Notes under the pieces: model-generated
The model's database searches: none
Told to the model about the DNA's origin: nothing
What the model saw: only the letters and a program-made list of their open reading frames with translations
Assembly (NCBI GenBank): GCA_009602725.1
Contig: WELB01000023.1
Coordinates: forward strand, 827,973 to 891,972
Direction of reading: 5' to 3'
Source of the DNA: Spirogloea muscicola
Taxonomy: Eukaryota; Streptophyta; Zygnematophyceae; Spirogloeales; Spirogloeaceae
DNA length: 64,000 nt
Translations under genes and position numbers: made by a program
Part shown: in pieces, positions 12,907 to 62,755 of the stretch
Position numbering within the stretch: position 1 is the first letter of the stretch
Layout of the letters: every line of letters starts with the position of its first letter

Positions 12907-13029
12907 GGAGCTGCCGCAGAAGCTACGAGGCTGTCGTCGAAGAGCTGCATTGGACAATCGTTCTCGTATGACTCCACACGTTCCCAGCCACCAGTCAATT
13001 CGGCCGCGCTTTTCTCACACGTTGCGAGA

Positions 13030-13110
13030 AGACAGTTGTTGGCAGAAGGAATCTTCGTGTATTTGAAACAAACGAAGGCCAAATGAAGGGGGCGATGGCT
13101 GAAAAGCCAG
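13030..13110 (-). repeat. Retroelement 3' terminus (A2 tail) fused to a hairpin-repeat relic
   Basis: Read on the minus strand it ends in CGTTTGTTTCAAATACACGAA, the terminal signature shared with copies at 32.7, 33.68, 33.96 and 34.45 kb. A hairpin relic, GGCGATGGCTGAAAAGCCAGCC, abuts it. Confidence 0.65.
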
Positions 13111-13410: not shown

Positions 13411-13690
13411 GGGCTCGCCCATTGAGGATAGGGGCTGGGAAAGCCAGCCCAAAAAGAATGAACAAAGTACGAGAAGGGGGGCCAGAAGAAAGGGCTCGCC
13501 CATAGAGAAGAGGGGCTGGCAAAGCCAGCCTTAAAAAAAGAATGGACAATGTCCAAAGCCAAAGAAAGAGATGCCAAAGAAGACTACTCTACCTGGAGGA
13601 AACGCTAAGAAAACAAAGCACACAAAGAAAGAAAGCGCAAATCACACAGTAACCCCTGCTAAGCAGCCGCAAATCAGAGAGGCTAGGGTC
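13411..13690 (-). repeat. Two hairpin-repeat modules plus long tail
   Basis: Modules at 13411-13480 and 13491-13560 contain GGGGCTGGGAAAGCCAGCCC and GGGGCTGGCAAAGCCAGCC, next to GCTCGCCCATTGAGGATA or GCTCGCCCATAGAGAAG and AAAAAGAATG(A/G)ACAA. The downstream stretch, with CGCTAAGAAA, GCACACAAAGAAAGAAAG and CAGAGAGGCTAGGGT, recurs at 51.5 kb, so the full repeat may be near 180-250 bp. Confidence 0.8.
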
Positions 13691-14225: not shown

Positions 14226-14310
14226 AGAGAGGGGGCTCGCCCATTGAGGATAGGGGCTGGAAAGGCCAGCCCAAAAAAGAATGAACGAAGTACGAGAAGG
14301 GGGAGGGCCA
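14226..14310 (-). repeat. Hairpin-repeat module
   Basis: GGGCTCGCCCATTGAGGATA, GGGGCTGGAAAGGCCAGCCC and AAAAAAGAATGAACGAAG. Same layout as the 51.44 kb module. Confidence 0.8.
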
Positions 14311-14359
14311 GAGGAAGCGCTAAGAAAACAAAGCACACTGATACTGAGCTACCGAAGAA

Positions 14360-14535
14360 GAGAGAGAGAGAGAAGGCGCGCGGTGCGCATGAAATTGAAA
14401 GGGAGGCTTGTTCAAGCCAATACATTATTCAAGCAGAGGCTAGTGCAAACTAAACAAGGCTACATGATGCGGAGACCTAAACTAAGGTGCCTAAGGTGAC
14501 ACTAGTATCCACGGGAGAGCACAAACAAATCTGGC
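14360..14535 (-). mobile_element. Retroelement 3' end, family B tail
   Basis: The reverse complement reads DLFVLSRGY-stop followed by GTCACCTTAGGCACCTTAG, and matches 58150-58320 almost base for base, including the end near GCGCACCGCGCGCCTTCTCTC. Only the last codons and the 3' UTR remain. Confidence 0.85.
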
Positions 14536-18559: not shown

Positions 18560-19247
18560 CTCCACGGGACGCCCTGGCGGGCTTGATGCGCGACGCCGGC
18601 TACCGCGCCATCGTTGAAGTGAGCAATGTAATGCCCATCACCACGGATTCCCAGGGAGGCCATCACCGTCGCACCCTGGACATTGTGGGTGTACAACCTG
18701 GCGGAGGCCCACGAGCTTTGGTTGATGTGGTGGTGACTGAGGCATACAAGAGTTCCGCTTCCACACACATTGCTGGCCACGCAGTGGGAGGTGCTGAGCA
18801 GAAAAAGCTCCGACACTACTCAGACTACCCCCGCAGTGACCACCTCCTCCCGGCCGCAATCGACACTTTCGGCTGCTTGGGTCCTCGCTTCCATACCCTA
18901 CTCGAGAACATAGCGAGTCTGGGATATGCACGACGCGAGGATATGCTCCCAGCCCAGATGGGTATGCCGGCAGCCTATCTGTCATTTCTGCGACGTCGAG
19001 TGTCAACCTGTCTGCAACGAGCTCAGGCGTATGCTCTGCATCAGAAAGCTGGTCGAGCCTTAGCTGCTGGCACAAGAGCTAGTCAATTGCCGTCCGGTAT
19101 TCGAGCGTCAGCTAGCGACCTCTATGTGCTGACTCGTGGTTACTGAGCGGGTCAGCTTAGCAGCAGGTGACGTACATTTGTCCAATGTGCTTGCCTTTGT
19201 ACTTGGCCACACATGGCCTCCCCATCTCTTAATATACACGCATTTTC
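18560..19247 (+). mobile_element. Young 5'-truncated non-LTR retroelement (REL-endonuclease end, A1 tail)
   Basis: ORF in frame to TGA at 19144-19146. Order: HDALAGLMRDAGYRA-like region, VMPITTDSQGG, RRTLDIVGVQPGGGPRALVD (T-L-D-x14-D, the catalytic spacing of the restriction-like endonuclease of R2/CRE-type elements), then AEQKKLRHYSDYPRSDHLLP, FGCLGPRFHTLLENIASLGY, LHQKAGRALA and DLYVLTRGY. The 3' UTR carries GTGCTTGCCTTTGTACTTGG and ends GCATTTTC. It has 19 bp target duplications on both sides and is about 99% identical to 63791-64000 over the shared 210 bases. The CCHC finger and RT are lost by 5' truncation. Confidence 0.93.
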
Positions 19248-19266: not shown

Positions 19267-19743
19267 TTGTACTTGGCCCCTCCATCACGTGATACGCACT
19301 TCATTTCTTTCCGAAGAGCCCCTTGCTCAGCCCTCGGGCATTATGGAAGAGCTGCTTCTTTCCGCAGCCATCGCTAATTCCTGGAAGAGCTGGGTTCTCA
19401 ATTTTGGGCTGGCCAATCACATCTCTCTGCTTACTTTGGAAGGTGTTTCCGATTTTCCCGTACTCTGCGTAGATTGTTGCCCAGCCAGGCTTAAGTCTTG
19501 AGGGGAAGGCACACCGTGTGCATGAAGTGAAGGGGAGGCCAATCTGACTGGCTCTGCCAGCCACTCTTCTCTATGGGCGAGCACTTCTTCTTAATCTGAC
19601 CAATACTTTGGTCAGGTGAAAAGCTAGTGCAAGAAACAAGGCCACATCAAACGAAGCCTACTACAACGTGGCTAAGGGAGGTCAAAAAGCTAGCCAGGGG
19701 CTAGCCAGGGGGCAGGTCCCCCCCGACTCCGCGTCTACCGCAA
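19267..19743. other. Spacer before the methionine-salvage gene, with one hairpin module
   Basis: A hairpin module at 19545-19592 reads GGCTCTGCCAGCC then ACTCTTCTCTATGGGCGAGC. The rest is unremarkable; the last 70 bases before 19744 become GC-rich, as expected for a first exon and promoter. Confidence 0.55.
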
Positions 19744-27439: not shown

Positions 27440-27640
27440 GTTGTACCTTGTCCATTCCATTGGGCTGGCCTCTCCCAGCCACCAGTCAATCTGGCCGCGC
27501 TTGCTTTTGTACTGGCTCTAGAGGCGTGCAAGTAGAATCGTCACCCTATCAGCGCTTTCCGGCCGCTTCGGACCTTGTCAATTATGCTCGGGCTGGCTTT
27601 TCACAGCCCTCGCCCCCTTTTGGGGTAGCCACTTTCTTTC
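27440..27640 (+). repeat. Two hairpin-repeat modules with different tails
   Basis: 27445-27508: CTTGTCCATTCCATTGGGCT, GGCCTCTCCCAGCC, tail ACCAGTCAATCTGGCCGCGC. 27571-27635: CTTGTCAATTATGCTCGGGC, TGGCTTTTCACAGCC, tail CTCGCCCCCTTTTGGGGTAG. Same head, different tails, 65 bases apart. Confidence 0.8.
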
Positions 27641-30600
27641 TTTCTTCAGTTCAAGCATACATGACTCATATCTGAAGTGAAGTCAACGCCAGGCGTTCGC
27701 CTTCATCTCTAGAATCATGTGCGAAGCTGGAGTTGGACGGATAGGATCTCAAGTGGCATGATGGTCACACTGTGCTTGGCTCTTCAGCATGAGGCGGCAG
27801 TTTCCTTGTTGCCGATTACGAGCTCAGTAATTGCAACTACCTCAACACATGCATTTGCAGTGCTTCTCCTCTTCTGCAGCTGCTAGCTACTGACTTTGCC
27901 TCCAATGGATCTTTGTAGAGGAGACTTGAGTATAATTTCAATAAGCAGATGGCCGTTGTCGCAGCCTTCTTGTATAATGAGTATTCAGTTGCGCGCCTGC
28001 TGCCCTAGGTGTAGCCAAATTTTCGGGCTCGCGGTCAGTGATTGAACACTATTCCTCCGTGCCCATTGTCACCCTACCCTACCCTACTGTCAAACGTTGT
28101 CCATATCAGGCATTTGCAATGCAGCCCAGTAGTTTCGAAGTACAAACAATGCTCTAATTCCTCAAAGCGGTACTTGTCATGTTTCTGCTCACACACACAG
28201 AGTAGGAGGTCAGGATGTCCTTAATCAGAGGTCAATGACCGGGGGTTAAGGAGCTAACCCAGTACATAGCGAAGCACTCGTGCACACAGTGCAGACGAGG
28301 ACCTCACTCCATCGGGCTGCCGCAAGGCTGCTTCACCTCCTGGGCAACACCAACGACTGCTCTGTAGAGGGACGCAGCCACAGGCTCCTCGCAGCATGCC
28401 AGGAACGAGCTGTGGCTACGAGCTGCAGCAGCAGGCAGGCAGCAGCAGGGCTGCGTCCACAAGGCTTCAAATTCTCGAACTCCCTTCGCCTGCAGGCCCC
28501 TCCGGACCTTGACAATGCCTCCTGGGCTGGCCTTCTGTGAGGAGAGAAAGACTCTTCCAGTAGAGGGCGATGGCTGTAGTTGGCCAGTCAGAAGAAGAAT
28601 TGAACAATTCACAGCTAGTCGCCCTCTTTTGCTTTTTCGGGAAGAACTTCGTATAATTTCTCAGCCCAAAGTTTCCTGTGCTTCCTGTGCCAATGCCCCT
28701 TAGGGTTTGTTTAGGGTTTGTGTGGGAGTTGCCCCGAGGCCGACTCCGTGAGGGGCAGGCCTCACGAATACACGAGGGCCACCGAGGGCCACCTGAGGGC
28801 AACCGGAGGTAATCTGAGGGGCCATCCGGAACGAGCAAGGTTCCGGAGGCGACACGGATCACATGAATCACTAGCTCTTACAGTACAAAGCAATGCCTGT
28901 GAGAGGCCAGCCCAAGAGAAATGAACAAGGTCTCAAAGGCCGGAAGGCATGAACTTACGTAACTATTGTCTGTAAGTTCTGCAACGGACGCTTATTTATC
29001 TCAACTTAGGGAATGCAGATCTGAGTCACTAGAGGGCGGCAAAGCGTCACCTTGAAATCACAGCGTGTCAGAGTATGACAGTCTCATAGAGAAAGTAAGC
29101 TCTTCCAAAGGGGGCGAGGGCTGTGAAAAGCCAGCCCAGAAAAAGTGGACAAAGTCTCGTAGCTCGGGCATGTTCAGAGCACTTGCCTGTGACGCTGCAC
29201 AGGCATGTAGTGGTACCAGCACCAATTTGGTGCTCACATTACGTGGAAGTCAAAACGCCGGGCAAGCCAGCTTTGGCTTGACATTGACCGACCTTACACA
29301 AGTACCTATTGACATGTCTACCATCTAATGAGTGCACACTTCGGAAAAATTCACGTATTGGCTGTGAAGAGCATCACGAGTAAGAAGATAACGTCAAATG
29401 ACGGCTGATCCTATGAGCTATGCACGGCTTCACATCAATTTTAGCATAACACATTAATTGTACTCTGGGGAGTATACAACGCCTACCAAGGAGCTACAAA
29501 TTTGGCCACACCCTGCACTGCTCAGCCAACAAGCTGCCACAAAGCAAATCATGGCCACGCAAATGCAGGTGCAACTTTGTTCAATCAGAGAACAATTCCG
29601 TGGGTAAGGCAACCTCTTGATGGCTGACCTACCTAACTAAGGCCCCTCGCTGCCCTCCCTCTCCACTACAGGCTTTTCCGCCCTCTACTTCTTTCGATCC
29701 GTACTTGCTGACTAGAGGGTATTGAGCGTCCACTCGCAGAAGTCACGTAGAGTAGCGTGCTTTTGAGCCTTGCGGCCCTTCTTACACCTTGTACACTCTG
29801 GGCTGGCCTCTCACAGCCATGCCTTACTTTGCAAGAGCTATTCCTTCACCGAACGTCGTCAAGAGTCGACACTCCCGGGTGAATCTGACTCCGCCTCGCC
29901 TGCACAAGCGGGCGCACGCACTTCCCAGGCCGTGCCAGGAGGGCGCGAGCGTGTGCACTAGGCAAGCCAGACGCCACAGAGCCTCACTACGGTGGACTCC
30001 GAGCATTGACACATGATTGAATAATTTTGCAAGGCAATTGTGAAACTTGTGTGACAGCGTAAATTTAAGCATAGCCCTGAAACAATTGTTAGAGGTGTGG
30101 CATGTGGGCTCTCCTGCTTTACCTACGATGTTGAGGAGATGTGAGTCCTAGAGCCTATTATCGATCCGCTGAACATTGCTCCAGCGGCACTTCATTATAT
30201 TTCAGGGTTACTTGAGGTGGACCAATTCTGCCACTTCATCTCTTGTGAGGAGAGACGCCAAGAGACCTAGGTGCACCTGCGCATTCCTCTGCCAATCATT
30301 AGCAAATAAAATGCTGACCTCTTTCAATTGAACATGCAGGACATCAGCCGCGTTGATGCCATGTTGCTGTTGGGTCGTGATCTCTGTGACGAGGCAGGGA
30401 ATGCTCTCCGTCGTCTGCAATCTTCCGCTTTACTCATGGCCCAGCCTAACCATAGCAACGCTACTGCAGCAGGCATTTAGAAGGGTCCCGGCCTGTGAAG
30501 ATTCCTGGTTTGAGATGTCTAAGCGTCTTGCTTAGCAGAGATTGACTTATGCAGTCCACTTGACACACTCCTGCACTGCTCGGCCGCACTTCAGATAGCT

Positions 30601-31780
30601 ACCACCGCTTAACTCAAAGTCGTGATTTAGGTCCAGCAGGGACAAGTTGGCAGTGCTGTCTGTACGTAGTATGTCGGGCAAAGCTCATTCTCAAATCCAA
30701 ACATGACTAACCAGACGTTTATGACAGTTGAGGAAGGGGTTTTTGACATGGAGGACATTTACAAACTAGTGATTGCTTAAGAGGCCACTGATGTCACATT
30801 CCATACCATTCATGAGGGGTTTGCTGGATAGAGCTTTGTTAAAGCTCGCTGAGTAAGAGGAAAGAACCGGGCAGGATGCATGACCAACCTCAAATTTGAG
30901 TCCTTGCAATGCCTTTTCATGGGATGCGATATGTCAAGCTGCCATCTTCATGGAGGTCATCTGGCTACTCCTTTCAGCATCAAGCTGCTGTCATGGGAGT
31001 ATTGACGGTTTTGAGGACTCCTGACGTTTCCAATGTATGGTTGAATACATACTGAGAGTAGCACTTCGTTGAAGAAGCATGTGCAAATCGCCCGGCTGGA
31101 CATCTTACGTCAAATTTCACAAGGGCCCACGACCATCCGCTGTAGCGGGTACAAGCTCAAGCTGATGGACCAACTGCTGTCAGTAATCAAGTTTTTCTCA
31201 GTCCGTATGCAGGCAAACGCTTCAACCAACTGTGATGCATCTATGCTCTGAACGCGATAGGGCATGAATTTTGTGCATTATCTAAGATTGTCTATAGATA
31301 CCACTCATTAGCATTTCTTGGTTGGTTGAGAATCACTTAGTTGGGTGCTCGCTGAACTCCTCAGCCTGTTCTAGGATCCGCCATTTTGGAGTTGGGTCGG
31401 CAGTTCACCCATCTGTTGTATTTGATACTTTTTACTGAATGTGCAATTCATCATGCTATCCATCATCCATGTATGTTGTGCTTGTATGAATCTCAGAGCC
31501 AATTCCTCTCCTGATTATCACGCTGTCTTTCTTAACATCTATAAATCCGTTGTCCTGCATGCCACCTAGATTATGACGTCACCTCTGACCCTGCTGACTT
31601 GACTGGCCTAAGACTGTTGTTGGCAGTCAACGCCTGATGGCATGACAGTGCCTTCTGCGAGGGGAGGCACGCCCCGCTGAGGCTGCAAGAAACAATGTCC
31701 TGGCGAAGGTGTCATCACCCGCATTTTTCTTGTGTAACTCTTCGTCCCTTGACGAGCAGGGGTGTGCATAAGGCAAGGTA
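27641..31780. other. Gene-poor stretch with scattered hairpin modules
   Basis: No gene recognised. Hairpin modules or relics lie near 28550-28615 (GGGCGATGGCTGTAGTTGGC), 28885-28940, 29095-29165 (GGGGGCGAGGGCTGTGAAAA then GCCAGCCC) and 29785-29855. A TTTAGGG-like pair sits at 28700-28720. At 30341-30480 a possible exon follows an ACATGCAG acceptor (DISRVDAMLLLGRDLCDEAG), but no partner exon or family is visible. From 30500 to 31780 I see only AT-richer unique sequence. Confidence 0.45.
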
Positions 31781-31784
31781 CGAG

Positions 31785-31865
31785 AAAGAAAGTGCGCGCC
31801 CATAGAAAACAGGGGCTGGCAGAAGCCAGCCGAAAAAGAATGGACAAAATCCAAAGAGCTCCAAC
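31785..31865 (-). repeat. Hairpin-repeat module
   Basis: GTGCGCGCCCATAGAAAACA, GGGGCTGGCAGAAGCCAGCC and AAAAAGAATGGACAAAATCC. Confidence 0.8.
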
Positions 31866-32034
31866 AGATGCCGGAAAGAAGGGAAAAGACACAGCTAGGC
31901 ATCTAGACAATTAGACACGACAACTCCACAGGAAGCTCAATAACCGCGGGAAGCTCAATACCCGAAGGAAGGTACGAGAGACGGCAAGCATCAGGCCGGG
32001 CAAAGACTTTTGAGGACGACAGGCCTGCTGCAAA

Positions 32035-32152
32035 ACCGCCGGCTGCAAAACCCTATACCCTAAAGCCTAAGTCCTGAACCCTAAACCCTTAAGCCAAAAG
32101 CCTAACCCAAAACCCTCAACCTCTAAACCTAAACCAAAACCTAAAACCATAA
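32035..32152 (+). repeat. Degenerate interstitial telomeric repeat (CCCTAAA type)
   Basis: Runs such as CCCTAAAGCCTAAGTCCTGA, ACCCTAAACCCTTAAG, AACCTAAACC and AAACCTAAAACC. They fit decayed CCCTAAA units, the plant and green-algal telomere type. Confidence 0.75.
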
Positions 32153-32269
32153 CGCGTCTCCTGACACATTTGGTGGGGCTTCCTCCTCCATTTTGTCGAT
32201 TTGATCTGGACTGGCCTCCGCAGACGCGGCGAGCCAGCCGACTTCAACGCCGCTGGCTCGTGGGCTCAG

Positions 32270-32430
32270 GTATACCGGATGCGCCTCTCTGTATCCCTGC
32301 AGCGGTCCATGGCCCACGCTCTGCATCTGCGAGCTGGCCGTGCTCTCGCTGCGGGCTCTGGCTTCGTCAGGGTGATAGCTTCCCGGCAGCTAGTCTGTCG
32401 GATCTGAGGCTCCTCACTCGTAATTACTGA
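32270..32430 (+). mobile_element. Retroelement C-terminal fragment (LLTR-type)
   Basis: Reads RMRLSVSLQRSMAHALHLRA, GRALAAGSG, then SDLRLLTRNY-stop after a frame change. Sister copy of 13190-13352. Confidence 0.8.
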
Positions 32431-32509
32431 GTGATCCATCCTCCCCCTGTTTTACCATAGCATCCTCAGGCCCCTTTGTAGCTGCTCACCGCTCTTAGGC
32501 CCCTCTGAA

Positions 32510-32585
32510 CCTTTGTGAATTCTTTTTGGGCTGGCTTTTCGCAGCCCTTGCCCCCATTGGGAGTGCCACTTCTTCTTTCACAGCG
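32510..32585 (+). repeat. Hairpin-repeat module (GCCACTTC tail)
   Basis: CTTTGTGAATTCTTTTTGGG, CTGGCTTTTCGCAGCC, tail CTTGCCCCCATTGGGAGTGC then CACTTCTTC. Confidence 0.75.
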
Positions 32586-32694
32586 ATCGCCTTACACCGA
32601 AAGAGCTGCTTCATATCGTGTTTCACAACGAAAATTGCTCCTGTAGGAAGGCGATATCTGTGAGAGGGCAGCCAAAAGCGGTAACTCGTTCTAA

Positions 32695-33105
32695 AGGAAA
32701 ATTTCGTGTATTTGGAACAAACATAGGCCAATGGCCAAGTACAAAGGCAAGCAAGCACATCTAAATATCTACATAACCTACAGCAGGTTGACCCGCTCAA
32801 AATCCACGGGTCAAAACATAAAGGTCGCTAACCGATGCATGAATACTAGATGTCAGGTACGAAGCCCTTCTGTCACCAACTAGAGCTCGCCCAGCTTTCT
32901 GATGCAAGGCATTAGCCTGAGCTCGCTGCAAACAGGCCGAAAGTCGACGTCGCAAGAACGACAAATATGCAGCTGGCAAGCCCATTTCAGCCGGAAACAC
33001 ATCTGCACGTCGTGTGTAGCCTAGATTGGCAATGTTTTGGAGGAGGGTGTGGAATCGAGGACCCAGACAGCCATAGATGTCGATTGCCGCTGGCAGGAGA
33101 AAAAA
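32695..33105 (-). mobile_element. Retroelement C-terminus with A2 tail
   Basis: Minus strand reads LLPAAIDIYGCLGPRFHTLL, ANLGYTRRADVFPAEMGLPA, LSACLQRAQANALHQKAGRA and DLYVLTRGF-stop. The 3' UTR runs to about 32695 with GTGCTTGCCTTTGTACTTGG and ends in CAAATACACGAAATTTTC. The 5' end is cut near 33105, next to hairpin sequence. Confidence 0.9.
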
Positions 33106-33109
33106 GGGG

Positions 33110-33265
33110 GCGGGGGTTGTGAAAGAGAGAAGGGCGCGCCCATAGAGGAGAGGGGCTGGGAAAGAGAAAAGGCTCGCCCATTGAGGAAAGAAGAAGGCTC
33201 GCCCATAAAGAAAGAGGGGCTGGCAAAGCCAGCCCAAAAAGAATGGACAATGTCCAAAGCCGAAG
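33110..33265 (-). repeat. Stacked hairpin-repeat modules
   Basis: Three GCTCGCCCAT/GCGCGCCCAT boxes within 90 bases, then GGGGCTGGCAAAGCCAGCCC and AAAAAGAATGGACAATGTCC. Looks like nested or recombined modules. Confidence 0.75.
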
Positions 33266-33309
33266 AATGAGAAGCCGAGGAAGGACTCCTCTACTCTACC
33301 AATCACGAC

Positions 33310-33365
33310 AACATACTAGGGAAGCTCAGTACCCGCGAGTGAGCAACATCAGGTCCGAGTAGCTC
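33310..33365 (-). mobile_element. Retroelement terminal codons
   Basis: Minus strand reads SYSDLMLLTRGY-stop only. Confidence 0.6.
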
Positions 33366-33384
33366 GAGGCAGGGAAGGAGGCAC

Positions 33385-33570
33385 TGGGCTGGACAGGGGC
33401 TGGAAAAGCCAGCCCAAAAAAGAATGAACAAAGTTCGACAGGGGAAGCGCTAAACCAAAAGGAATAAGCAGCTATTGAATTACTCAGTAGAAAGGGCTCG
33501 CCCATTGAGGATAGGGGCTGGAAAAGCCAGCCCAAAAGAGAATGAACAAAGTACGAGAAGGGGGCCAGGG
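33385..33570 (-). repeat. Two hairpin-repeat modules
   Basis: 33390-33445 and 33490-33565. Both have GGGGCTGGAAAAGCCAGCCC followed by AAAA(A)GA(A/G)AATGAACAAAG. The second has GCTCGCCCATTGAGGATA and ends GAGAAGGGGGCCAG. Confidence 0.8.
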
Positions 33571-33671
33571 GAAGCTGCTAAGAAAGGCAAGCACAAAAAG
33601 AAAGAAAGCAGCTACGAAGCACTCAGTAAGAAAGTGCTTCGTAAGGGAGGACGACTCTTCCAGTAGAGAGG

Positions 33672-33790
33672 AATTTTCGTGCATTTGAAACAAACGAAGG
33701 CCAAATGGCCAAGTACAAAGGCAAGCACATCTAAGACCTACATAACCTACAGCAGAATGACCCGCTCAGTAACCGCGGGTCCAGTAGAGG
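33672..33790 (-). mobile_element. Retroelement 3' UTR remnant (A2 tail)
   Basis: The reverse complement carries ACCCGCGGTTACTGAGCGGG, GTGCTTGCCTTTGTACTTGG, GGCCATTTGGCCTTCG and CAAATGCACGAAAATTC. Only the last two codons plus the tail remain. Confidence 0.8.
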
Positions 33791-33799
33791 GCGATGGCC

Positions 33800-34330
33800 A
33801 TTTGGCCTTGTTTGTTTCAAATACACGAAAATCTTCGATGGCTGTGATTGGCCAGCTTAGACAACACAATTGAACAAAGTTCGAAGTGCCAGAAAGAAAG
33901 AAAGAAAGTGCTCGCCCTGAGAAAAAGAAGGTGCTCGCCCATTGAGAAAGGGGAGATTTCGTGTATTTGAAACAAACGAAGGCCGAAGGCCAAGTACAAA
34001 GGCAAGCACATCTAAAGAGGGGGCCAGCAAAGCCAGCCCAGAAAGAATGGAAAATGTCGAAAGCCAAAAAAAACACACAGCTAGGCAGCTAGACAATTAA
34101 ATACGACCAAAACACAGGAAGCTCAATACCCACGGGTGAGCAACATCAGGTCGGAGTAGCAGGAAAAGATGCATTCAGACGCGACCCACAAAAAAAAAAA
34201 CACACAGCTAGGCAGCTAGCAAGCGGGCCAGATTCAGTGGTGGCAGACTTCTTGCAGAAGCAGCCGCGATAGCGCGGCCGGCACGCGAGTGGACGGCATG
34301 AGCGAGGGAGCGTTGGAGGGACACGGAGAG
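33800..34330 (-). repeat. Mosaic of A2 tails, hairpin modules and an SLQRS fragment
   Basis: 33800-33890: A2 terminus on plus strand plus a hairpin relic. 33915-34060: GCTCGCCC boxes, an A2 tail (minus) and GGGGGCCAGCAAAGCCAGCCC. 34105-34330: minus strand SDLMLLTRGY-stop preceded by SVSLQRSLAHAVHSRAGRAI. The pieces interrupt one another, suggesting repeated insertion into the same target. Confidence 0.65.
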
Positions 34331-34374
34331 ACAGAAGGGTTGGACAAGTTCACGGCCACTGTTTACCTCTTTGG

Positions 34375-34815
34375 CTTGGGATATTGTCCATTCTTTTTGG
34401 GCTGGCTTCTCCCAGCCACCAGTCAATTCGGCCGCGCTTTTCCCCTGAAGAAAATTTCGTGTATTTGAAACAAACATAGGCCAATGGCCAAGTACAAAGG
34501 GCAAGCAAGCACATCTAAGAAGGAGGAGAAGGAGAGGGCGGTGGCTGAGAGAGGCCAGCCCATAAAAAAGAACAAAGTAAGGCGGCTCTCCAATGTAAAG
34601 CTTTCCGGCTGGCTTTGCCAGCCACTCTTCTCTATGGGCGAGCACTCTTACCGGAAAGTAGAAGAAGAAAGTAACAGCTCCGCAATGAAAATCAAGAAGA
34701 AATCCCTCCTCAGTGAAGAAAGACGCTTCCAGGAGAGGAAGAAAGCGGGGCCAGATTGACTGGTGGCTGGGAAGGCCAGCCCAAAGTAATGGACAAGGTC
34801 TGAAGGAGCTGGAGT
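34375..34815 (+). repeat. Cluster of hairpin modules and an A2 tail
   Basis: 34380-34442: ATTGTCCATTCTTTTTGGGC, TGGCTTCTCCCAGCC, tail ACCAGTCAATTCGGCCGCGC. 34445-34515: A2 tail, minus strand. 34535-34600: GGCGGTGGCTGAGAGAGGCC AGCCC type. 34606-34655: CCGGCTGGCTTTGCCAGCC plus TCTCTATGGGCGAGC. 34745-34803: minus-strand ACCAGTCAATCTGGCC type. Confidence 0.8.
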
Positions 34816-34894
34816 GCGAAGGAGAGGTTACTAAGAGTTACTGAGAGCCTCCTTGTCGTCTTAGCACTTAGTCCCCTGCTTTCTGCTCCATTCG

Positions 34895-35700
34895 GCTCCT
34901 CTTGACCTTGTCCATTCCTTTTGGGCTGGCTTCTCCCAGCCACCAGTCAATTCGGCCGCCCTTTTCCCCTGAAGGAGAGGGCGGTGGCTGAGAGAGGCCA
35001 GCCCATAAAAAAGAACAAAGTAAGGCGGCTCTTCAATGTAAAGCGTTCCGAAGAGCCTCCTCCCGAACCCAAAGCGCACGAACAGTTCCGCTAGTGACCG
35101 CCTTGTACTGGGGCGCACTGCTGGCCCGCAATTTAGCCCACCGTTCTGCGCAAGGCTCATGCCGTTGGCCCAGCCGGACGTCTCGCGGCCGTCGCGACGC
35201 CTAGGGCAGGGCAGGGCGGCCGGCAGAGCCGCCCTGCCCACTTGGCTGCCCTGTCATTTTGCAAGAGCTGTTTCTCCGGCGGCAGAGCCGAGCCTGCCGC
35301 CGCCAGCAGCGGAAGAAGAAACGAGCTCTCCCAATGAGAGCTCTCCCAATATGTAGGTCTTCAGATGTGCTTGCCTTTGTACTTGGCCATTTGGCCTTCG
35401 TTTGTTACAATCACACGAGATTTCTCTCCTAAGTCTTTTGTCCTTGTCATTCCTTTTGGGCTGGCCTCTCCCAGCCACCAGTCAATCTGGCCGCGCTTGC
35501 TTCAGGTCTTTCGTAGCTGCTTTGTTCCTCACGTGCTTTTGTTCCATTGTCCATTCTTTTTGGGCTGGCTTTGCCAGCCCCTCTTCTCTGTGGGCGAACC
35601 CTTTCTAAGCCTTCCCCTGGCCCCTTCGAACCTTGTTCATTCTTTTTGGGCTGGCCGTTCCCAGCCCCTTTCCTCAATCGGCGAGCACTTCCTTTCCGCT
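34895..35700 (+). repeat. Second dense cluster of hairpin modules
   Basis: 34903-34968 and 35445-35505 carry the ACCAGTCAAT-CGGCCGC tail. 34975-35040 repeats the 34535-34600 module almost exactly. 35550-35605 and 35632-35695 carry CATTCTTTTTGGGCTGGC with tails CCCTCTTCTCTGTGGGCGA and TTTCCTCAATCGGCGAGCAC. A plus-strand A2 tail lies at 35365-35430. A GC-rich unique piece (35150-35330) separates them. Confidence 0.8.
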
Positions 35701-35866
35701 GTGGTCTGTCAGATGAACAACTGAGCGGGGCCGGTGGCGGCTCCCCAGCGGCGGCGGCGCTCGCGGACAGGAAACGAATATTCGCGCCGTCCTCTCTTGT
35801 GCGCGGCGCGCCCGGCGGCGGCGCACGTGGCAGAAAGCAGACAGTGAGCGGCCGCCACGTGGCAAC

Positions 35867-36424
35867 ATGGCGGCCCCCGCGGCAGGCGCTGGCAGATGCC
35901 CTCCCGCCCTAGAGCAGCTCAGCATCTGCGGCGAGGATATTGGAGGGCCCTGCACTCGGTGTGCACTTGGCCGTCTGCTCCGAGTGCCCTTCTGTCTGGT
36001 CAGTGAGTTCCGTGTGCTTTGCGAGCCTCTTTCATGGCTTTGGACATTGTCCACTCTTTTTGGACTGGCTTTGCCAGCTCTTCTCTATGGGCGAGCACTT
36101 TCTTTAGGTAACTGAGGTGACAGTGCGAATGTACCCACATTTGAGCACAATGGAGCTGCCGTGCGGCGGGAAGGCTTCTGATCTCCCGGCTGGCGAGGAC
36201 GTCGCCGGCGCCGTCTGGGGAGGCGTCGGCCCCCCCCGCCCACCTCCAAGCAATGTGTTGGCTCAGATGGGCCACCCCATCATTTCATGCGCAGGGCGCG
36301 CCGTCTCCCGGCCGCCCCGTCATCCACATCCACACCGAAACTCCCGCCGAGTGCGCGGGCCCCCCCCCGGCACCGTCCACCCGGCGGCCGGGCCGAGCTC
36401 CAGCTCCCCGCCCCCCACTGACTG
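35867..36424 (+). CDS. Possible two-exon start of an unidentified gene
   Basis: ATG at 35867, in a GC-rich promoter-like setting, opens MAAPAAGAGRCPPALEQLSI then CGEDIGGPCTRCALGRLLRV, ending at a donor-like CTG|GTCAGT near 35999. After an intron containing a hairpin module, a reading VTVRMYPHLSTMELPCGGK begins near 36117 and runs Pro-rich to 36424. I recognise no family. It could be the 5' part of a gene or chance coding in GC-rich DNA. Confidence 0.25.
36040..36105 (+). repeat. Hairpin-repeat module
   Basis: TTGGACATTGTCCACTCTTT, TTGGACTGGCTTTGCCAGC and TCTTCTCTATGGGCGAGCAC. The outer TGGACATTGTCCA is itself a short palindrome. Confidence 0.75.
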
Positions 36425-40746: not shown

Positions 40747-41523
40747 GCATAAGTCGTCATCTGACTCCATCTGAAGGAAATCAGTTAACTGCTGTATGTC
40801 CTGGTTTTGTTAGGTTGCTAGCCAGCTATTTCTTGGCATAGCGCTGTAGCGAGGCTGCAGAGTAGCAACTAATGAGAGTCCATGCACCTACTACCCAAGG
40901 TGGACTGAGGAGCATGTTATCTGGCCTCGCAACCATCTCAATTTTGTCAAGCTTGGCATCCTTTGAGAAGCCGGCACTGCATCTTTGCTACCGACTGGAC
41001 CACTTGGCTGGAATGTGATATGTTTTGGCCTTGCCTGAAATTTGGACTGTGAAAATGGTAGGCACTAAATTATGTCGTTTGGCCTTGCCCCAACTTTAAA
41101 TCGTGAATATTGTGGCATGAGATTGCGGCTTGGTTCAATGTTGCTGGCGACGAGTGTCACAACACGGTGTTTGCAAGCCTGCATGACTTGATTGCATTTG
41201 CCACTGCACTCAGTGTACATCTTAATGCAGCCCTCGCACAGCATGACATTAGCTGCTCTTTTCGGAAATGGCACTTTCTGCACGAATGCTGTGCCAGTGA
41301 TCAGCGGAGGACCGATTGTACGACGCCGTTTGGATAGGATAAAGTGTCGAGTTCCAGAGCTTGCAGTAGCTGTGTGTGGCTGTACATGCCGAACATGTCA
41401 CAATGTGTGGAGAGCGGTGACAAATGATCCTCAAACCTGCGAAGAAAGAGCTCATGTGTCAACTTCGTAGCCAAAGAGAAGGCGGGCGATGCACACAAGT
41501 TGAAAGGGTTGCCAAGCAAGCCA
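40747..41523. other. Convergent intergenic region
   Basis: Shared 3' flank of the 5'-nucleotidase (+) and C2 protein (-). Short imperfect repeats (GTCGTTTGGCCTTGCC and TGTTTTGGCCTTGCC near 41020 and 41075). No gene seen. Confidence 0.45.
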
Positions 41524-43620
41524 TTACACTATATAAGGAAAACAAGGAATGTTTGATGGGGGCTCAGCTAACAAAACGAAAACCAGCAGTAAGAGGGTGC
41601 CCAAAGATGCTCTTTGTACTGAGTATGTCAAGCAGAGCCACCGTGCAGACCTCGTGAAGGGTTTCGGTGATGAGCAGGTCCACGCATTCGCCTGCTGGGG
41701 GCATAAGGCAGGCGCTGGAGGCGCCGGACTGGGATACGGCACCACTTCAGATTGCAGCAGCTTATCCAGATCCCAATCCTCGTCCAACCACAGCTCTGCA
41801 TCTCGCAGGAGAAGAATTGTCATCAATTCGTAGGCGTTCAGACATATTTATGCAAGCTCGTCTTAAAATCTCATACGATGCAACAACTCAACAATGACTG
41901 TCGACACGCTTGCTGTTCTACTCACCAGGCATCACCAGCGACTCCAGTCCGTGGAGTGGGTCGTCGACTGCATGTAGGCTGCTGTCATCATCTAGGAGGC
42001 GGTCTGTGGAGCTGTCGGTGCTCTCCTTGTCCTCCAACGTAGTTCCTCCAGGTGGGCTAGCTGCTCCTTGCAGCTTGCACAACCGGCTGGATGTCGTAAC
42101 AGCGACTGTGGTGGACTGTCCGAACCCTTTGCCCGGCGAGTTGCAATCAAGGGGACGACAATGCGCGAGCACCTCGGGAGACGGCATCGTAAGTTCCGCA
42201 ACATAAGCTGCTGTTGAGGGATGCTTCGGCCCCATGCCAGGGCCATGGCTCCAGCTGCACTGGCTGGTCTCGAGGACACTGGAGGCGGCGGCAGGCACCC
42301 ATGCAGGCGGAGGCCAAGCGGCAGAGAAGAGGGGGTCCGCTTGATCCTCCTCCAGGGCGCAGGCATTGTCAGAGGCGGCGGACGTTCTGAGCGCCTGCCA
42401 CAGCCAGCTCTCAGGACAGTCGTGGCCTTCCGTCGCCGGCGTGGCGGGCGTGGCCACAGAGGGCGTCGAGGCCGTGCTGGCGCTCGTGGCCGTGCAGCAG
42501 CTCTCAAAGCTGCCTGCTGGCAGGCATGCCCGGGCCGCGGTCTCGCCGCCACTGCCATTCCTGTGGTCCTCAATGGACGACACAGCGTTGCTGCAGGTCG
42601 TGGTCTCGGAGCCGGCCTGCGAGGGATCCGTCGGCACATCCGTGGGCAGCCTCGTTGAGCCTTCCAGGCCATCCAGTGAGGCCGGCATCGTTGGCTGCTC
42701 GGGCTGTCGTGCATTGATGGTCCGCCTCTTCATCGCTGGCTCTGAGCCGGATGGCCAGGAGGAAGAGCAGAGCTTGGCGCCAACGGAAGCGTGCTGGGCG
42801 AGGCGTGCAGGCACCGCTGCAACTGGCGTCGCCGAGGGACCGGCATGGCGTGCGTGGTAGGCCAGCGTGGCGCGGACGCAGCCAGCGCCTCCGCCGTCGA
42901 GGTTGAAGTCCTGGCGGGGGAGCCGGCGGCTGCCACCGCCGCCGAGGTCGAGCTTGGGGAAGGGGATGGGGATGGCGACGGCGCCCAGGAGGCGGTCCTC
43001 GAAGCTGCCGCGGTGATGGCTGGACACCCACACCTCGCACCGCACCTCCGCCTCACCGCCCACAACTGCCACCTGCACAGCTTGCACAGCTCTCACAGCG
43101 GTCAGCGCAGCAGCGCAGCAGCCGCGCCGCATGGTGCTCGTGGCTCCGAGCGACTATGCCAGAGCACGAGCTTGTCACCTGGAGGCACTGGTTGAAGTTG
43201 GGGTTGCTGCCACCGCGGCGGATGGTGCGGGTGAGCAGCGCAACTGGGCCAGCCGCTCCGCCAGCGGCGCCGTGCAGCAGCTTGACATACACGTCCTGCA
43301 GGAATGCCGAAGCGCGAGACAGGTTAGCACAAAATTATCCGCAATCGAGCGAGAGCAGTAGCGTCCTCGTCAATGGCCACTCCCTCGAGCAAGGACAGGC
43401 GCTTGAAGGCATCGTCAGGCTCGCAGCGGCTGGCGGGTGACGGTGGAGCTCGCAGTGAGGTCAACTACGTGCAGAAGCACACCTGAGGACCGAGCGGGCT
43501 GATGTTCCGCAGGCCGCGAGCTCCGTGCAGCAGAACGTCCAGGATGCCCACGACGCGCGGTACCGCCTCGTTGCCACCGCCGCCGCCGCCGTCCCGAGGC
43601 CGCTTGCGCTGCCGGCCCAT
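41524..43620 (-). CDS. C2-domain protein with long low-complexity region
   Basis: C2 domains bind membranes, often with calcium. Exons on the minus strand: 43620-43483, 43295-43179, 43072-41926, 41795-41524. The C2 fold is split over the first three: GILDVLLHGARGLRNISPLG, then DVYVKLLHG...RTIRRGGSNPNFNQ, then VVGGEAEVRCEVWVSSHHRG with FEDRLLGAVAIPI. The phases fit (138 and 117 bases, both multiples of three). About 300 residues rich in Ser, Thr, Pro and Ala follow, then ELWLDEDWDLDKLL and a hydrophobic end (LGTLLLLVFVLLAEPP) that could anchor the protein. Of the usual calcium-binding Asp residues I see only some, so calcium binding is uncertain. The start is the first ATG before the C2 domain; an upstream ORF is probably UTR. 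Confidence 0.75.
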
Positions 43621-45386
43621 GGTGCGGGCTGCCGCGGTTCCTGCCGTCGACTTCGCAAGAGCGTACTCGAGGCACAGAGAGCCGGCCGAGCCCACAGCGC
43701 GCTGCGTCGACGGGCCGAGGCGCCTGCGTGAAGCACGCGGGCTTGCACTGCAGTAGCGGTGTGGCGCAACGAGCGCTGGCGAGCGCCTGAGGATCGGGTG
43801 CCGGGCCAGGCCAGCGGCGTCTCGCGGGTGAGCTCTCAGGGGAGCGCTGCCGCGGCGGCGCAGAGGCGGAGGAGGGGGAGGAGGGCTGCGGAGGCGGAGG
43901 TCGCGCAGGCGGGGGGCAGCGATGGAGGAGGGGGGCTGGTGGCGCCGGAGGAGGGCGCCCAGTATGGGCGGGCCTCGGGGGACGGGGCCGCCACATTGGC
44001 GGCGGGGCCACAGCCGGAGACGCCCCAGCGATCACCACTGTGCCGCGAGGCCAGGTCCGCACTGCCGCCTGATCTGGCGGCGCCGCCACGCCTCTAGCGA
44101 CGGTTTGACTCGCTCGGTGGCGTGGAAAAGCTCTTCTGCGTCATTCCATCATGTCGCGCTTGTCAGCGCATCCCCGGCTTCGTGTAGTCAAAAGCATGGC
44201 GACTGCCCCGGACGCCTGTCGAGTTTTGTAATAGTGAGCAGATGAAGTCCAGATAAGCAAGCGCGGCGCTGCTTCACTGGCCGCGGGGGACAGATGGCGT
44301 GCAGTCATTCGGAGGACGATCTGGCCGACCCATCTTCCAGGAAAGGCGGCGGCCTCCGCCTGCCCCTTGGGCGCCGCCCAAACAACATTCTCATCTGCAC
44401 TATTCCCTTATTCAAGACTCATCAAGACTCGCAGGAATGGAATAACGTGTCACTCACTTCCACGTACAGCATTGACATCCAATCGCATCGATGCTGCTGT
44501 GTTACGGCAGGGGGATTCAGCAGAGCCGCCAATGCACGTCAGCCGGGCGCTCTGTCAGCCAGGCCGCCATACTCCTTCGCGGCATCGCGGAGTACGCCAG
44601 CGGGCCCGCTCCACAGGGGGGGCCGCAGGTCGTGGCCCGCGCTGAGAATGACGTGAACACGCACTGTTGACGGGTGGGCCCCCTCGGCCCCCGCAAGCCA
44701 CCAATCAGCATAGACCGCCTGGAATGCCTGCTTGTCCCAAGGGGCCACGCCGCGGCTCTGCTGGCGCCCCGGCTCGCTAACCGCCGCCTGTCAAGGGCGG
44801 CCAGAAAGCCAGTTATTTATTGCCGCCACACCTGCACGCTACCGCCCGAAAGCATGTTCCACGACGCGCCTCGCTTCAGCACCACCCACGCCGGCCGTGC
44901 CTTGGCTAACCCTCAAGGCACAGGGCGACTCCTTTTGGAGTAGCTTACTTCAACTCTGCACTCTCCGCTTCCTTGCACCTTGTTCTTCCTTCAGTGGCTG
45001 GCTGTCAACAGCCCTCGCCTCCTTCAGGTGCCACTGCTCTTTCTGTTGCTACTCATACCGACTTGCGGCTGTTGACAAGGGCTCTTCTGAAAGGCTAAAG
45101 AAATGTGGTTACTGTTTCTTTGGCTGAGTGATCGACGCTTGCAGTTGGGGCCTAGGTCTCGTCCATCCTTTGGCCTGCTTTTCCACGACCACCGCTCGTT
45201 GTAGCACCTCTTGTCATCCAGCCCCTAAACCATTTACAAAAGATTGGTGTAGCCCTGATGCAAATACCTCTGCAGTTACATGGATTCTCTTCCAGCCTGC
45301 GCCTCAAGGCTTCCTCTTGACATGACTTCAATTTGCTCCCAGGGCAATGATTCAATGCTCGACGTCTTATATCAATAGAACCAAAA
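43621..45386. other. Region between divergent C2 gene promoter and P450 3' end
   Basis: GC-rich to about 44100 (promoter/5' UTR of the C2 gene). A minus-strand ORF at 44539-44748 reads MAPWDKQAFQAVYADWWLAG but has no recognised family. A hairpin module lies at 44972-45035 (CTTGTTCTTCCTTCAGTGGC, TGGCTGTCAACAGCC, tail CTCGCCTCCTTCAGGTGCCA). From 45040 to 45386 nothing is seen beyond the P450 3' UTR. Confidence 0.45.
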
Positions 45387-49783: not shown

Positions 49784-50930
49784 GGCCACGGCGGCGGCGG
49801 GAACGCCGTCCCCGGACGGCAGACGCCGCAGCGGGCTAGGGGTTGGGTTTGAGATTGAGCTGACCAAGAAGTTGTAGTGAAATTCTTCGAAGCTCCAAAG
49901 AAGTAGAAGGGTTAGTAGTAAGGCTGGACCGAAACATATGGGGCTCGCAAACAGATGCGACGCCTTTCTATGGAGAATATGGGTTTGAGAGGCCAGCCAA
50001 GAAGGAAAGGCCAAGCCGAAAAGGTAATGGACGATGTTCAAAGGAGCTGAACGGGTAAACCCTAAACCCTAAACCGTAAACCCAAGGTGGACGCAGCTGA
50101 TGCTGGAGCTGGGGCTAAGTGGTCGGAGATGGTGGTGAGCTATGGGTTCAGTGGGTCGTCGTGAGTGGCCGCCCAAGAAGAGGAAACGGCTGCTGACTAG
50201 AAAAGTAGCTATTTGAAGGCCGATCAGAACGTGTAAAACATGGCAGACATTAGATGACGTCACAGTGCCAGAGCCTCAGGCTTAAAAAGCTGCAGAGTGT
50301 CACAGTACCCCTTGGAGGCATTGGACGAGCTACGCTGGCGAATGTGCGGTCCTCCATGCGAGCTAGCAGCAGCTGTCAGGCTTGACTAGCAATGCAAGAC
50401 ATCACTCCTCCAAGCGGTGCAGCAAGTGTGGGCATGCTTAATTCTGCAAGACCCTTCCCTGCCGGTATGAGAGCGCCCATGAAGTGCCAGTACGGTCATT
50501 GGCAGTGCTTCCACGTATGTTAATGCCACGCGCTGCAATTCTGCAATACCTCGATGACGCCTTGTTTACGTGCAGGGCGAGCTCCAAAAGATGTCTGCTC
50601 AATAGCTCTGGCATATTGCATACATATGCTGGTGTATGGCTGCTGTGTATGCCAGTTCACCATGATTGCTTTCTCTAGTCAACAGCCGCAAGTCGAAATT
50701 AGAGTAAGTCGCAGCTGGAAAGATTCGTTAACCCAGAGGCGGCAGCCAAGGCAGAGCTTTTTGGAATGCACGGCGGAATGCTCCTTCGATTTGCAGAGGC
50801 GCACACGTACACCTGAGCGAGTGACCCGGCGCAGCTTGAGCCACTCGCCCTGCTGCAATGTGGACAAGGGGTAATTGAGCTCCTAATAATAGTCGTCACT
50901 CAGTGTAGCTGTGTGCTTTGTGCTTTCTGG
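49784..50930. other. Region upstream of the P450 gene; no gene recognised
   Basis: The P450 promoter probably lies in the first few hundred bases. Telomere-like repeats occur at 50055-50090. Short ORFs (50484-50874) show no motif. Confidence 0.45.
50055..50092 (+). repeat. Interstitial telomeric repeat (CCCTAAA type)
   Basis: GGGTAAACCCTAAACCCTAA followed by ACCGTAAACCC: about four units, better preserved than those at 32.04 kb. Confidence 0.8.
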
Positions 50931-50934
50931 TCCT

Positions 50935-51600
50935 ACCGGACTTTGTCCATTCATTGTGAGCTGGCCTCTCACAGCCATTGCCCTGTTTGCAAGAGCTTCT
51001 GCTATCCAGATGAAGTTGTTTGTGCTTTTAGTAGTTTATTTAACGCCGGGTTCTTGAGAGAGCCAGAAACGAGCTGGACATCAAAGTACGATCAAACGAA
51101 GGAGAGACAGCTCTGCCATTGTAAGGCAATGGCTGTGAGTAGAAGAAAGAAAGGGCTCGCAAAGCCAGCAAAGGAATGAACAAACGGCCGGGAGGAACCA
51201 AAGACTGCGGAACGCGGGAAAGTAAGAGAAGTGCTCGCCCAGAGAAGAGTGGCTGGCAAAGCCAGCCCAAAAAGAATGGACAATATCCCAAGCCAAAAGA
51301 AAAAGGTTTCGAAAAGAAAGGGCGCGCCAAAAGTAAACCATGAGATCGGACGCGGGAGTAAAACGAGGAGATTGCGGTGCTGATATTGAAAACGAGAGGC
51401 CTGACCCTACTAGCCCCCGCGGGGGGAAGAAAGGGCTCGCCCATTGAGGATAGGGGCTGGACAAGCCAGCCCAAAAAAGAATGAACAAAGAACGAGAAGG
51501 GGGCCAGAGGAAGCCAGAGGAAGCGCTAAGAAACCAAAGCACACAAAGAAAGAAAGCAGCTACAAATTACTCAGTAATCAGAGAGGCTAGGGTTGTAACG
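50935..51600 (-). repeat. Cluster of hairpin modules, including the best long copy
   Basis: 50938-51000 (plus): TTTGTCCATTCATTGTGAGC, TGGCCTCTCACAGCC, tail ATTGCCCTGTTTGCAAGAGC. 51118-51180: relic. 51228-51300: GCTCGCCCAGAGAAGAG, TGGCTGGCAAAGCCAGCC, AAAAAGAATGGACAATATCC. 51433-51595: GCTCGCCCATTGAGGATA, GGGGCTGGACAAGCCAGCCC, AAAAAAGAATGAACAAAG, GAGAAGGGGGCCAGAGG, AGCGCTAAGAAACCAAAGCA and CAGAGAGGCTAGGGT. The last stretch gives the fullest extent of the element, near 165 bases. Confidence 0.8.
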
Positions 51601-52321: not shown

Positions 52322-52745
52322 AAAAAGAAAGGGCGCGCCCATAGAGAAGAAGAAGGCTCGAGAAAGAGAGAGAAAGAGAAAGAGGGGCTGGCAAAGCCAG
52401 CCCAAAAAGAATGGACAATGTCCAAAGCCGAAGGATGAGAAGCCGAGGAAGAAAGTGCTCGCCCATTGAGAATAGGGGCTGAACAACCAGCCCGAAAGAG
52501 AATGAACAGAGTACAAGAAGGGGGCCAGGGGAAGCGCTAAGTAACAGAAACAAAGAATGAACAAAGAACGAGAAGGGGGCCAGAGGAAGCGCTAAGAAAC
52601 CAAAGCACACAAAGAAAGAAAGCAGCTGCAAAAGGAGAGGAAGGACTCCTCTACTCTACCAATCACGACGAAGAGGGGCTGGCAAAGAGAAAAGCGCGGC
52701 CGAATTGACTGGTGGCTGGGAGAAGCCAGCCCAAAAGCAAAGGTG
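52322..52745 (-). repeat. Three hairpin-repeat modules
   Basis: 52328-52430: GCGCGCCCATAGAGAAGAAG, GGGGCTGGCAAAGCCAGCCC, AAAAAGAATGGACAATGTCC. 52455-52620: GCTCGCCCATTGAGAATA, GGGGCTGAACAACCAGCCC (mutated stem), then the long tail twice over. 52670-52740: GCGGCCGAATTGACTGGTGG, CTGGGAGAAGCCAGCCC. Confidence 0.8.
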
Positions 52746-57164: not shown

Positions 57165-57425
57165 TTAGTAACCCCGTGTCAGCAGTAGGAAGTCAGATGA
57201 GCTGAGGGGAGGAAGAGCAACCCCGCTGCGCAAGCCAGAGGCTGCTGCAAGGGCACGACCAGCGCGGCGATGCAAAGCAAGCGCTTGGGAACGCTGTAGC
57301 GACATAGACAAACGCATACGGTCGCAGGACACAAGACCCAAAGGCACCGAGCCACCGGGAAGGGCTGCACCCTGTTCCCGGCGCCGCTGGTCAGCTTGAG
57401 ATGCCAGCAGCGAAAGTAACGAGGA
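57165..57425 (-). mobile_element. Retroelement C-terminal fragment, third lineage
   Basis: Minus strand reads MDIHGCYGGRWSSLLSLLAS, RMRLSMSLQRSQALALHRRA and DFLLLTRGY-stop. It resembles family B but has its own end. It lies head to head with the next copy. Confidence 0.85.
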
Positions 57426-57429
57426 CCAC

Positions 57430-62599: not shown

Positions 62600-62755
62600 A
62601 GCTGTCGGACCCTCCACGGGGTTTATGTTTTGACCCGTGGTTATTGAGCGGGTCAATCTGCTGTAGGTTATGTAGATTTTTAGATGTGCTTGCCTTTGTA
62701 CCTGGCCATTTGGCCTACATTTCTTTCTAATACACGATCTTTTCCACGGGCATAG
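62600..62755 (+). mobile_element. Retroelement 3' end (A-type tail)
   Basis: Reads VYVLTRGY-stop, then GAGCGGGTCAATCTGC, GTGCTTGCCTTTGTACCTGG, CCATTTGGCCTACATTTC and ends TAATACACGATCTTTTCC. It is on the opposite strand to the RT ORF it lies beside. Confidence 0.8.

Follow-up and report, generated by a model that had tools for sequence, protein, structure and literature searches.

The hairpin repeats described here are almost certainly LINE 3' ends, most of them severely truncated at the 5' end, that belong to several sister lineages within a single clade. They were analyzed in 64,000 nucleotides of Spirogloea muscicola DNA (the window), in which a library search found 36 copies of types A-E with the 3' end, including 19 at 27,440-36,105 (Table 1). 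The count includes the library members C4, E2 and E4 matching themselves, and a copy at 34379-34443, found in another listing, is additional to it. An earlier note on this DNA had described a head, a GGGCTGGC hairpin and four tail types in about 30 copies, and all of these were present where it had placed them, in both orientations. Retrotransposition, which it had considered as the source, agrees with the copies being LINE 3' ends. For types A-D, which are the 3' end of the LINE itself, its other proposals (a non-autonomous element distinct from the LINE, a recombining mosaic or a processed structured RNA) do not hold.

Table 1. Features of the LINE clade in the window
Feature	Position	Strand
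Type E 3' end	9316..9354	-
Reverse-transcriptase remnant, 49% identical to L011	9723..10211	-
Type D 3' end, CACACGTT on each side	12982..13007	+
Type F 3' end	13054..13085	-
Type B and type A 3' ends, adjoining, same orientation	13414..13592	-
Type B 3' end	14236..14338	-
Type G 3' end (97.6% identical to 58152-58318)	14369..14533	-
LINE C-terminal coding remnant, F-like lineage	18565..19143	+
Type G 3' end	19505..19543	-
Type A 3' end, ~45 bp, 8-bp target-site duplication AATCTGAC on each side	19548..19581	+
Type D 3' end, tail ACCAGTCAATCTGGCCGCGC	27445..27498	+
Type C 3' end (library member)	27540..27630	+
Type E 3' end (library member)	28879..29060	-
Type C 3' end	29100..29156	-
Type E 3' end	29799..29835	+
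Type A 3' end	31797..31856	-
Type C 3' end and part of LINE C-terminal coding region (32219-32365)	32225..32570	+
Type F 3' end (GGCCATTTGGCC hairpin family), overlaps LINE C-terminal coding 33087-32800 and lies downstream of it	32703..32925	-
Type B 3' end, short	33137..33164	-
Type A 3' end, extends into LINE coding sequence ending at 33329	33196..33385	-
Type B 3' end, adjoins type A copy (33196..33385), same orientation	33391..33444	-
Type B 3' end	33497..33629	-
Two type F 3' ends, head to head	33676..33829	.
Type F 3' end	33958..34015	-
Type A 3' end (75% identity)	34015..34160	-
Recombinant (upstream part type A; hairpin loop and tail type D)	34379..34443	+
Type F 3' end	34456..34518	-
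Type A 3' end, truncated at hairpin	34602..34643	+
Type D 3' end	34751..34836	-
Type D 3' end	34893..34959	+
Type F 3' end	35350..35418	+
Type D 3' end	35449..35494	+
Type A 3' end, adjoins type B copy at 35602..35685	35545..35597	+
Type B 3' end	35602..35685	+
Type A 3' end	36026..36095	+
Type G 3' end (77% identity)	36251..36307	+
Type G 3' end (78% identity)	41476..41528	-
Type C 3' end, short, weak	44996..45024	+
Type E 3' end (tail d of the earlier note; library member)	50760..50990	+
Type E 3' end, short	51111..51139	-
Type A 3' end	51234..51315	-
Type B 3' end	51436..51577	-
Type A 3' end, adjoins type B copy at 52458..52566	52377..52451	-
Type B 3' end	52458..52566	-
Type D 3' end	52696..52740	-
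LINE reading frame C-terminal part, lineage G: CCHC-type finger and restriction-like-endonuclease-type motif	57401..58183	+
3' UTR and type G 3' end of lineage G copy at 57401..58183	58184..58317	+
Type D 3' end	58350..58393	+
Type C 3' end	58442..58494	-
Type B 3' end	58542..58595	+
Broken reverse-transcriptase region, same LINE clade; 62044-61463 74% identical to L011, 61358-60870 40%	60870..62044	-
Type F 3' end, TCCACGGG on each side	62622..62737	+

Genome-wide, the hairpin core TTGGGCTGGC-N3-9-CAGCC had 13,921 exact matches versus one in the reversed control, and GGGCTGGC-N3-8-GCCAGCCC occurred 2153 times in 153 Mb versus none. Thus, the abundance of the hairpin is not a matter of chance, and the family comprises thousands of copies. 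Among types A-E, tails were counted for A, B and D, which gave 3601, 7589 and 4010 matches with up to two mismatches (reversed controls, 0). The pairwise identity of the A-D consensus sequences was 1.00 over GGGCTGGC, 0.70 in the TTGTYCATTC head and 0.37 at 17-35 nt upstream; the stem is therefore the best conserved part, as the earlier note had it. The tail diverged outside the hairpin, which itself hardly changed. It is not uniformly paired, since eight pairs are held in type A, seven in type B and five or six in types C, D and E, and the compensatory changes that had been predicted came down to one double change in 960 cells, itself within a target-site duplication. A second palindrome, TGGACAATGTCCA, was confirmed in type A among the listed copies and was absent from the other types. 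Pairing of head with tail in an outer helix, computed for 93 of 120 copies, reached -8.4 and -7.7 kcal/mol in types A and B versus -3.0 and -2.6 kcal/mol for shuffled tails; it did not exceed shuffled tails in C, D and E, and it lacked lineage specificity in these copies, the A head pairing better with the B tail than with its own. The 120-copy set includes L005:6421, which has a false hairpin and was retained in later counts. Six sequence motifs of the repeat, searched as strings in the literature, gave no match.

The tails had been thought interchangeable. Among 182 places, 19 of which had no recognisable hairpin and 105 of which were unclear on at least one side, upstream sequence and tail were of matching type in 55 of the 58 copies classifiable on both sides; type E had no upstream reference. 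The reading frames upstream of the tails were compared in a tree of 21 hand-chosen rows. These include D_L011 (gap 151) and exclude, as short, five of the 19 copies for which a coding end lay at a distance of 54-96 nt. Rows of B, C, D, F and G formed one cluster per type with support of 0.98-1.00, the F2 rows of L015 and L008 being labelled by nucleotide match to window positions 18559-19249, whose end is F-like. Type A was coherent except for the short row A_L020 (51 columns), which was placed outside A. Row A_w33 (47 columns, at most 53% identical) fell within A on a long branch and was judged unfit for the tree, its first half reading the neighbouring B copy. Frame identity in the tree rows was 78-85% in B, 90-100% in C and 90% in D, and 51-77% between A, B, C and D when A_w33 was excluded. 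In all, six 3'-end types (A, B, C, D, F and G) are tied to related reading frames, F and G having hairpins other than that of A-D, and type E showed no such link in any of eight copies. In A-D, each lineage has its own 3' terminus, passed on together with its reading frame; the tails are neither exchanged modules nor mere breakpoints, and they differ because the lineages diverged.

It is very unlikely that the repeats are instead a recombining mosaic whose constant stem gains new tails by a process such as template switching within the hairpin or end-to-end template jumping. The copy at 34379-34443 is the sole convincing recombinant, and 55 of the 58 copies just mentioned are unrecombined. Abutting copies had the same orientation at 42 of 59 junctions (binomial p 0.0015), as template jumping predicts; on the other hand, the outer duplications of 24 abutting chains were not above chance (one of at least 6 bp versus 2.2 expected). 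Inner copies of the chains alone gave 5 duplications of at least 6 bp versus 5.8 and 7 versus 6.6 (n=31 each). Since they showed no excess either, the chain duplication test does not discriminate the origin of the arrays. Exceptions were single cases, such as a 12-bp match around one inner copy in L010.

The anatomy of the copies is that of truncated LINE 3' ends. They all end at one point, behind the tail and a brief CTTTCTTC run; their 5' reach varies from 24 to 609 bp (median 134, n=120), and these values are lower bounds because reach was scored on the best-matching other copy. In 22 of 120 copies (10 of type A and 4 each of types B, C and D), a LINE reading frame had its C-terminus 50-100 nt before the copy, on the copy's own strand; three controls gave 3, 0 and 1. 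This is contrary to the earlier statement that no coding was seen. The other 98 copies had no coding end in this bin. A looser first count (39 versus 26 and 12 in controls) was superseded by the 50-100 nt bin. These data bear on another reading, a SINE, in which a short element distinct from the LINE and transcribed from a promoter of its own would be moved by the LINE via a common 3' hairpin. We consider this reading very improbable and largely refuted for A-D. Most copies are indeed short (at most 200 bp in 86% of 243 copies holding the 3' end), but they have no fixed 5' end, and the longer A, B, C and D copies run into LINE coding sequence. On its opposite strand, type C contains the B-box-like string GGTTCGAA; the candidate was rejected as a sign of tRNA-like A/B boxes, being missing from the A and B consensus, and the window gave no tRNA with ARAGORN and no Rfam match up to E 0.1. 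SINEs are described as borrowing stringent LINEs through common 3' tails (PMC4176376).

Target-site duplications were in excess of the expectation from shuffled flanks. In a first test on 104 copies, 11 were of at least 8 bp versus 1.4 expected, and 184 solitary copies gave 16 of at least 8 bp versus 2.5 and 46 of at least 6 bp versus 19.9. The duplications, found in a minority of copies, varied in length from 6 to 11 bp. About four of the 14 longest matches listed resemble element sequence of a neighbouring copy (L008 B2, L007 E3, L005 A2 and L016 E3), and some matches are pyrimidine-rich, so the true excess is smaller than counted. A TACTGAGT match at window positions 33490-33553 was rejected as a duplication, as it is element sequence. 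A DNA transposon derivative (a MITE or Helitron end), suggested by the short hairpin near one end and the thousands of copies, can practically be dismissed in view of the single constant end, the mixed duplication lengths and the tie to a reverse-transcriptase frame.

An unbroken frame of 1270 aa in L039, a relative (RVT_1 E 8.3e-15, Pfam), has a 3' UTR of ~130 nt and a type G 3' end of its own; the reverse transcriptase of L011 matched more weakly (RVT_1 E 1.2e-5, below the curated cut-off). In this frame, a zinc finger at the N-terminus is followed by the reverse transcriptase and, at the C-terminus, by a motif of restriction-like-endonuclease type. The closest solved chain was R2 (E 0.005); retron-type or group II intron-type reverse transcriptases came next, with E values of at least 0.2. 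The C-terminal CCHC finger and PD-(D/E)XK-type motif are conserved in the alignment as read by eye; a profile match to a restriction-like endonuclease domain was absent, and the predicted model of the window's C-terminal domain had a pLDDT of 37.7, too low for use. The endonuclease is hence a putative one, assigned by motif reading. No APE-type endonuclease was found, either in the 1270-aa frame, where RVT_1 was the sole Pfam match up to E 5, or in L011:3549-4709. This abundant clade was probably recently active: in the genome, 22 places scored 479.7-480.1 bits and were 93% identical to the search query.

Among the RLE LINEs (R2, R4, NeSL, HERO, CRE and Utopia), the one-protein layout reported for Utopia, with an N-terminal zinc finger, a middle reverse transcriptase and a C-terminal zinc finger plus restriction-like domain (PMC4640811), resembles the one read here, in which the endonuclease is putative and assigned by motif. 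The present frame also lacks an APE-type match and has an R2 protein as its closest solved chain. The present element has no single insertion target, since duplicated target sequences differ between copies; many HERO elements are also described as non-specific (PMC4640811). Light-harvesting genes place the host in the green lineage. Dualen, Zepp and ZeppL are likewise LINEs of green algae, and Zepp and ZeppL, L1 elements with an endonuclease-plus-RT region, form clusters as seen here (PMC8226300). However, Dualen has two endonucleases, APE-type included (PMC4640811), whereas our frame had no Pfam match to that type; this comparison is by published description.

A full element consists of a frame of ~1270 aa and a short 3' UTR, which closes with a small hairpin, the tail proper to its lineage and a short run of pyrimidines. 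In LINE insertion, DNA copying begins at the 3' end of the RNA. Copying would usually halt early, an outcome seen in the anatomy of the copies, so the genome fills with copies of a common 3' end that differ in length. The repeats are thus ordinary in kind, and 5' truncation can mimic a modular RNA family, which removes their apparent oddity.

Among stringent-type LINEs, UnaL2, ZfL2-1 and ZfL2-2 need a 3' stem-loop recognised by the cognate protein, and R2Bm and SART1 likewise require their own 3' UTR (PMC4176376). As in those elements, the stem-loop here lies close to the 3' terminus. By analogy, the head and hairpin are most likely the recognition site of the element's own enzyme on the RNA, where the reverse transcriptase would start copying; this would explain their conservation in a 3' UTR that otherwise diverges. 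Covariation in the stem gives such recognition no support. Unlike in those LINEs, one hairpin sequence is kept here across lineages at ~51-77% protein identity while the distal tails differ, and its recognition is predicted. In a tentative and rather doubtful extension, each lineage's enzyme may copy the RNA of the others, one head-plus-hairpin signal being common to at least four LINE lineages; with F and G carrying other hairpins and with rare recombinants at the hairpin, the genome would then form a natural series of change in the 3' recognition signal of a LINE. The six frame-linked 3'-end types and E offer useful material for studying joint change in a LINE enzyme and its RNA signal.

The clusters probably arose as new copies inserted into and next to older ones. 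One G element, L039, sits within the coding sequence of an A-like copy, as read by eye.

The head, the hairpin and the four tails described in the earlier note were all found in the window as stated, and the abundance of these repeats is far above chance. Across the 153-Mb genome, we identified 13,921 matches to the core TTGGGCTGGC-N3-9-CAGCC, compared with 1 in a reversed control, and tail searches allowing at most two mismatches yielded 3601 (A), 7589 (B) and 4010 (D) matches with 0 in the controls. The light-harvesting genes of the host indicate membership of the green lineage. To describe copy anatomy, we used the window and 20 stretches of 9.9 kb (262 kb in total), a biased sample in that these stretches were chosen around exact hairpins. 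Profile searches of this sample revealed 182 places belonging to five types (A-E), which are 3' ends with a common hairpin and different tails, and most counts reported here rest on the 120 places with a clear tail.

The copies have one end in common, at which, in the orientation of the earlier note, the tail is followed by a short CTTTCTTC stretch; past this stretch, the family consensus did not contain any common base. In the opposite direction, the length in common varied from 24 to 609 bp (median 134 among the 120 copies, all values being lower bounds). Such a combination of a fixed and a ragged end is characteristic of target-primed reverse transcription that stops early. The repeats are an ordinary LINE phenomenon, in which sister lineages have left truncated 3' ends in their thousands. 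Among 184 solitary copies, flank matches of at least 8 bp were observed in 16 (2.5 expected) and of at least 6 bp in 46 (19.9 expected); the real excess of duplications is below these counts, because about four of the 14 longest matches listed resemble element sequence of a neighbouring copy. One clear duplication in the window is given in the table.

The C-terminal end of a same-strand reading frame was located 50-100 nt upstream of 22 of the 120 copies (A 10, B 4, C 4 and D 4), compared with 3, 0 and 1 in three controls, and none of the eight sampled type E copies was tied to a reading frame. In addition to a reverse transcriptase, this parent frame encodes a finger of the form CxC...HxxxC, and a conserved block containing D, D and K reads like a putative restriction-like endonuclease; profile searches with this block gave no match and structure prediction no usable fold. 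A relative with an unbroken frame of 1270 aa, showing the full layout and an N-terminal zinc-finger motif, was found in another genome stretch (L039). No APE-type endonuclease was found in this frame, whose best solved relative is an R2 protein (E 0.005) and whose stop lies ~130 nt upstream of the element's own type G 3' end. Since coding sequence of an A-like LINE copy lies on both flanks, the element appears to be a nested insertion. Genome-wide, 22 places matched the G-lineage C-terminal domain with scores of 479.7-480.1 bits and 93% identity to the query, suggesting recent activity.

The earlier note had also proposed that the tails are interchangeable, which was not borne out: tails are inherited with the lineage and are not swapped. 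Both the upstream sequence and the tail could be assigned to a type in 58 copies; the two agreed in 55 of them (A 19, B 19, C 8 and D 9), and only one of the three mismatched copies, a recombinant in the window, was convincing. Rows of the C-terminal-domain tree (21 hand-chosen rows, unrooted) also grouped by tail type, with B, C, D, F and G forming one group each (support 0.98-1.00). Type A rows grouped less cleanly: A_L020, a row of 51 columns from one sampled stretch, fell outside A, and A_w33, from the window near 33 kb, was placed within A but on a long branch, which is explained by its first half, taken from an adjacent B copy. Identity in this domain was 78-85% within B, 90-100% within C and 90% within D, and 51-77% among the A, B, C and D lineages (A_w33 excluded). 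Lineages F (GGCCATTTGGCC) and G (TGCGCACCGCGCGCC) carry hairpins other than the A-D type and formed one branch separate from the others (support 0.998), with A_L020 basal to it in this unrooted tree.

The feature worth keeping is a common hairpin on diverged proteins, plus two lineages with other hairpins. The consensus sequences of types A-D agreed fully over GGGCTGGC and had a mean identity of 37% at 17-35 nt upstream. Five core pairs were kept in at least 97% of the 120 copies; some types had lost the outermost pair and the innermost one, and an outer head-tail helix was present in types A and B only. Compensatory stem changes, which had been predicted, were absent among the 120 copies; hence the conservation is of sequence, and support for the predicted hairpin structure comes from folding each consensus, not from covariation. 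In stringent-type LINEs, the cognate protein is described in one report as recognising the 3' stem-loop (PMC4176376). By this analogy, we infer that recognition by the element's protein is the best account of hairpin conservation.

Abutting 3' ends were often from different lineages, and 42 of 59 abutting pairs in the window and the 20 stretches had the same orientation, above chance (p 0.0015), as would fit same-orientation arrays produced by end-to-end template jumping. This explanation expects one duplication around the whole chain, but outer duplications were not above chance in 24 chains, and it is not supported. For inner copies alone, duplications were likewise not above chance, with single exceptions such as a 12-bp match in one stretch (L010). 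Separate insertions into or beside older copies are the simpler reading of the clusters, although the duplication test does not discriminate between the two, and the orientation bias is not explained by it.

Coordinates of individual features in the window and in stretch L039
Stretch	Positions	Feature	Detail
Window	19548-19581	~45-bp type A copy with clear duplication	AATCTGAC on each side
Window	34379-34443	Recombinant copy	type A upstream, type D loop and tail; switch at hairpin
L039	1-5001	Type G LINE	flanked on both sides by A-like LINE coding sequence (by eye)
Window	60625-62044	Reverse-transcriptase remnant	part repeated inverted (60625-60944, plus strand)
Window	32048-32149	Degenerate AAACCCT-unit array	telomere-like, in the middle of a repeat cluster
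Window	54497-54769	Two tandem copies of a 138-bp unit	88% matches
Window	26212-27351	DnaJ-domain reading frame	E 2e-18
Window	near 27106-27141	Run of N	inside the DnaJ-domain frame
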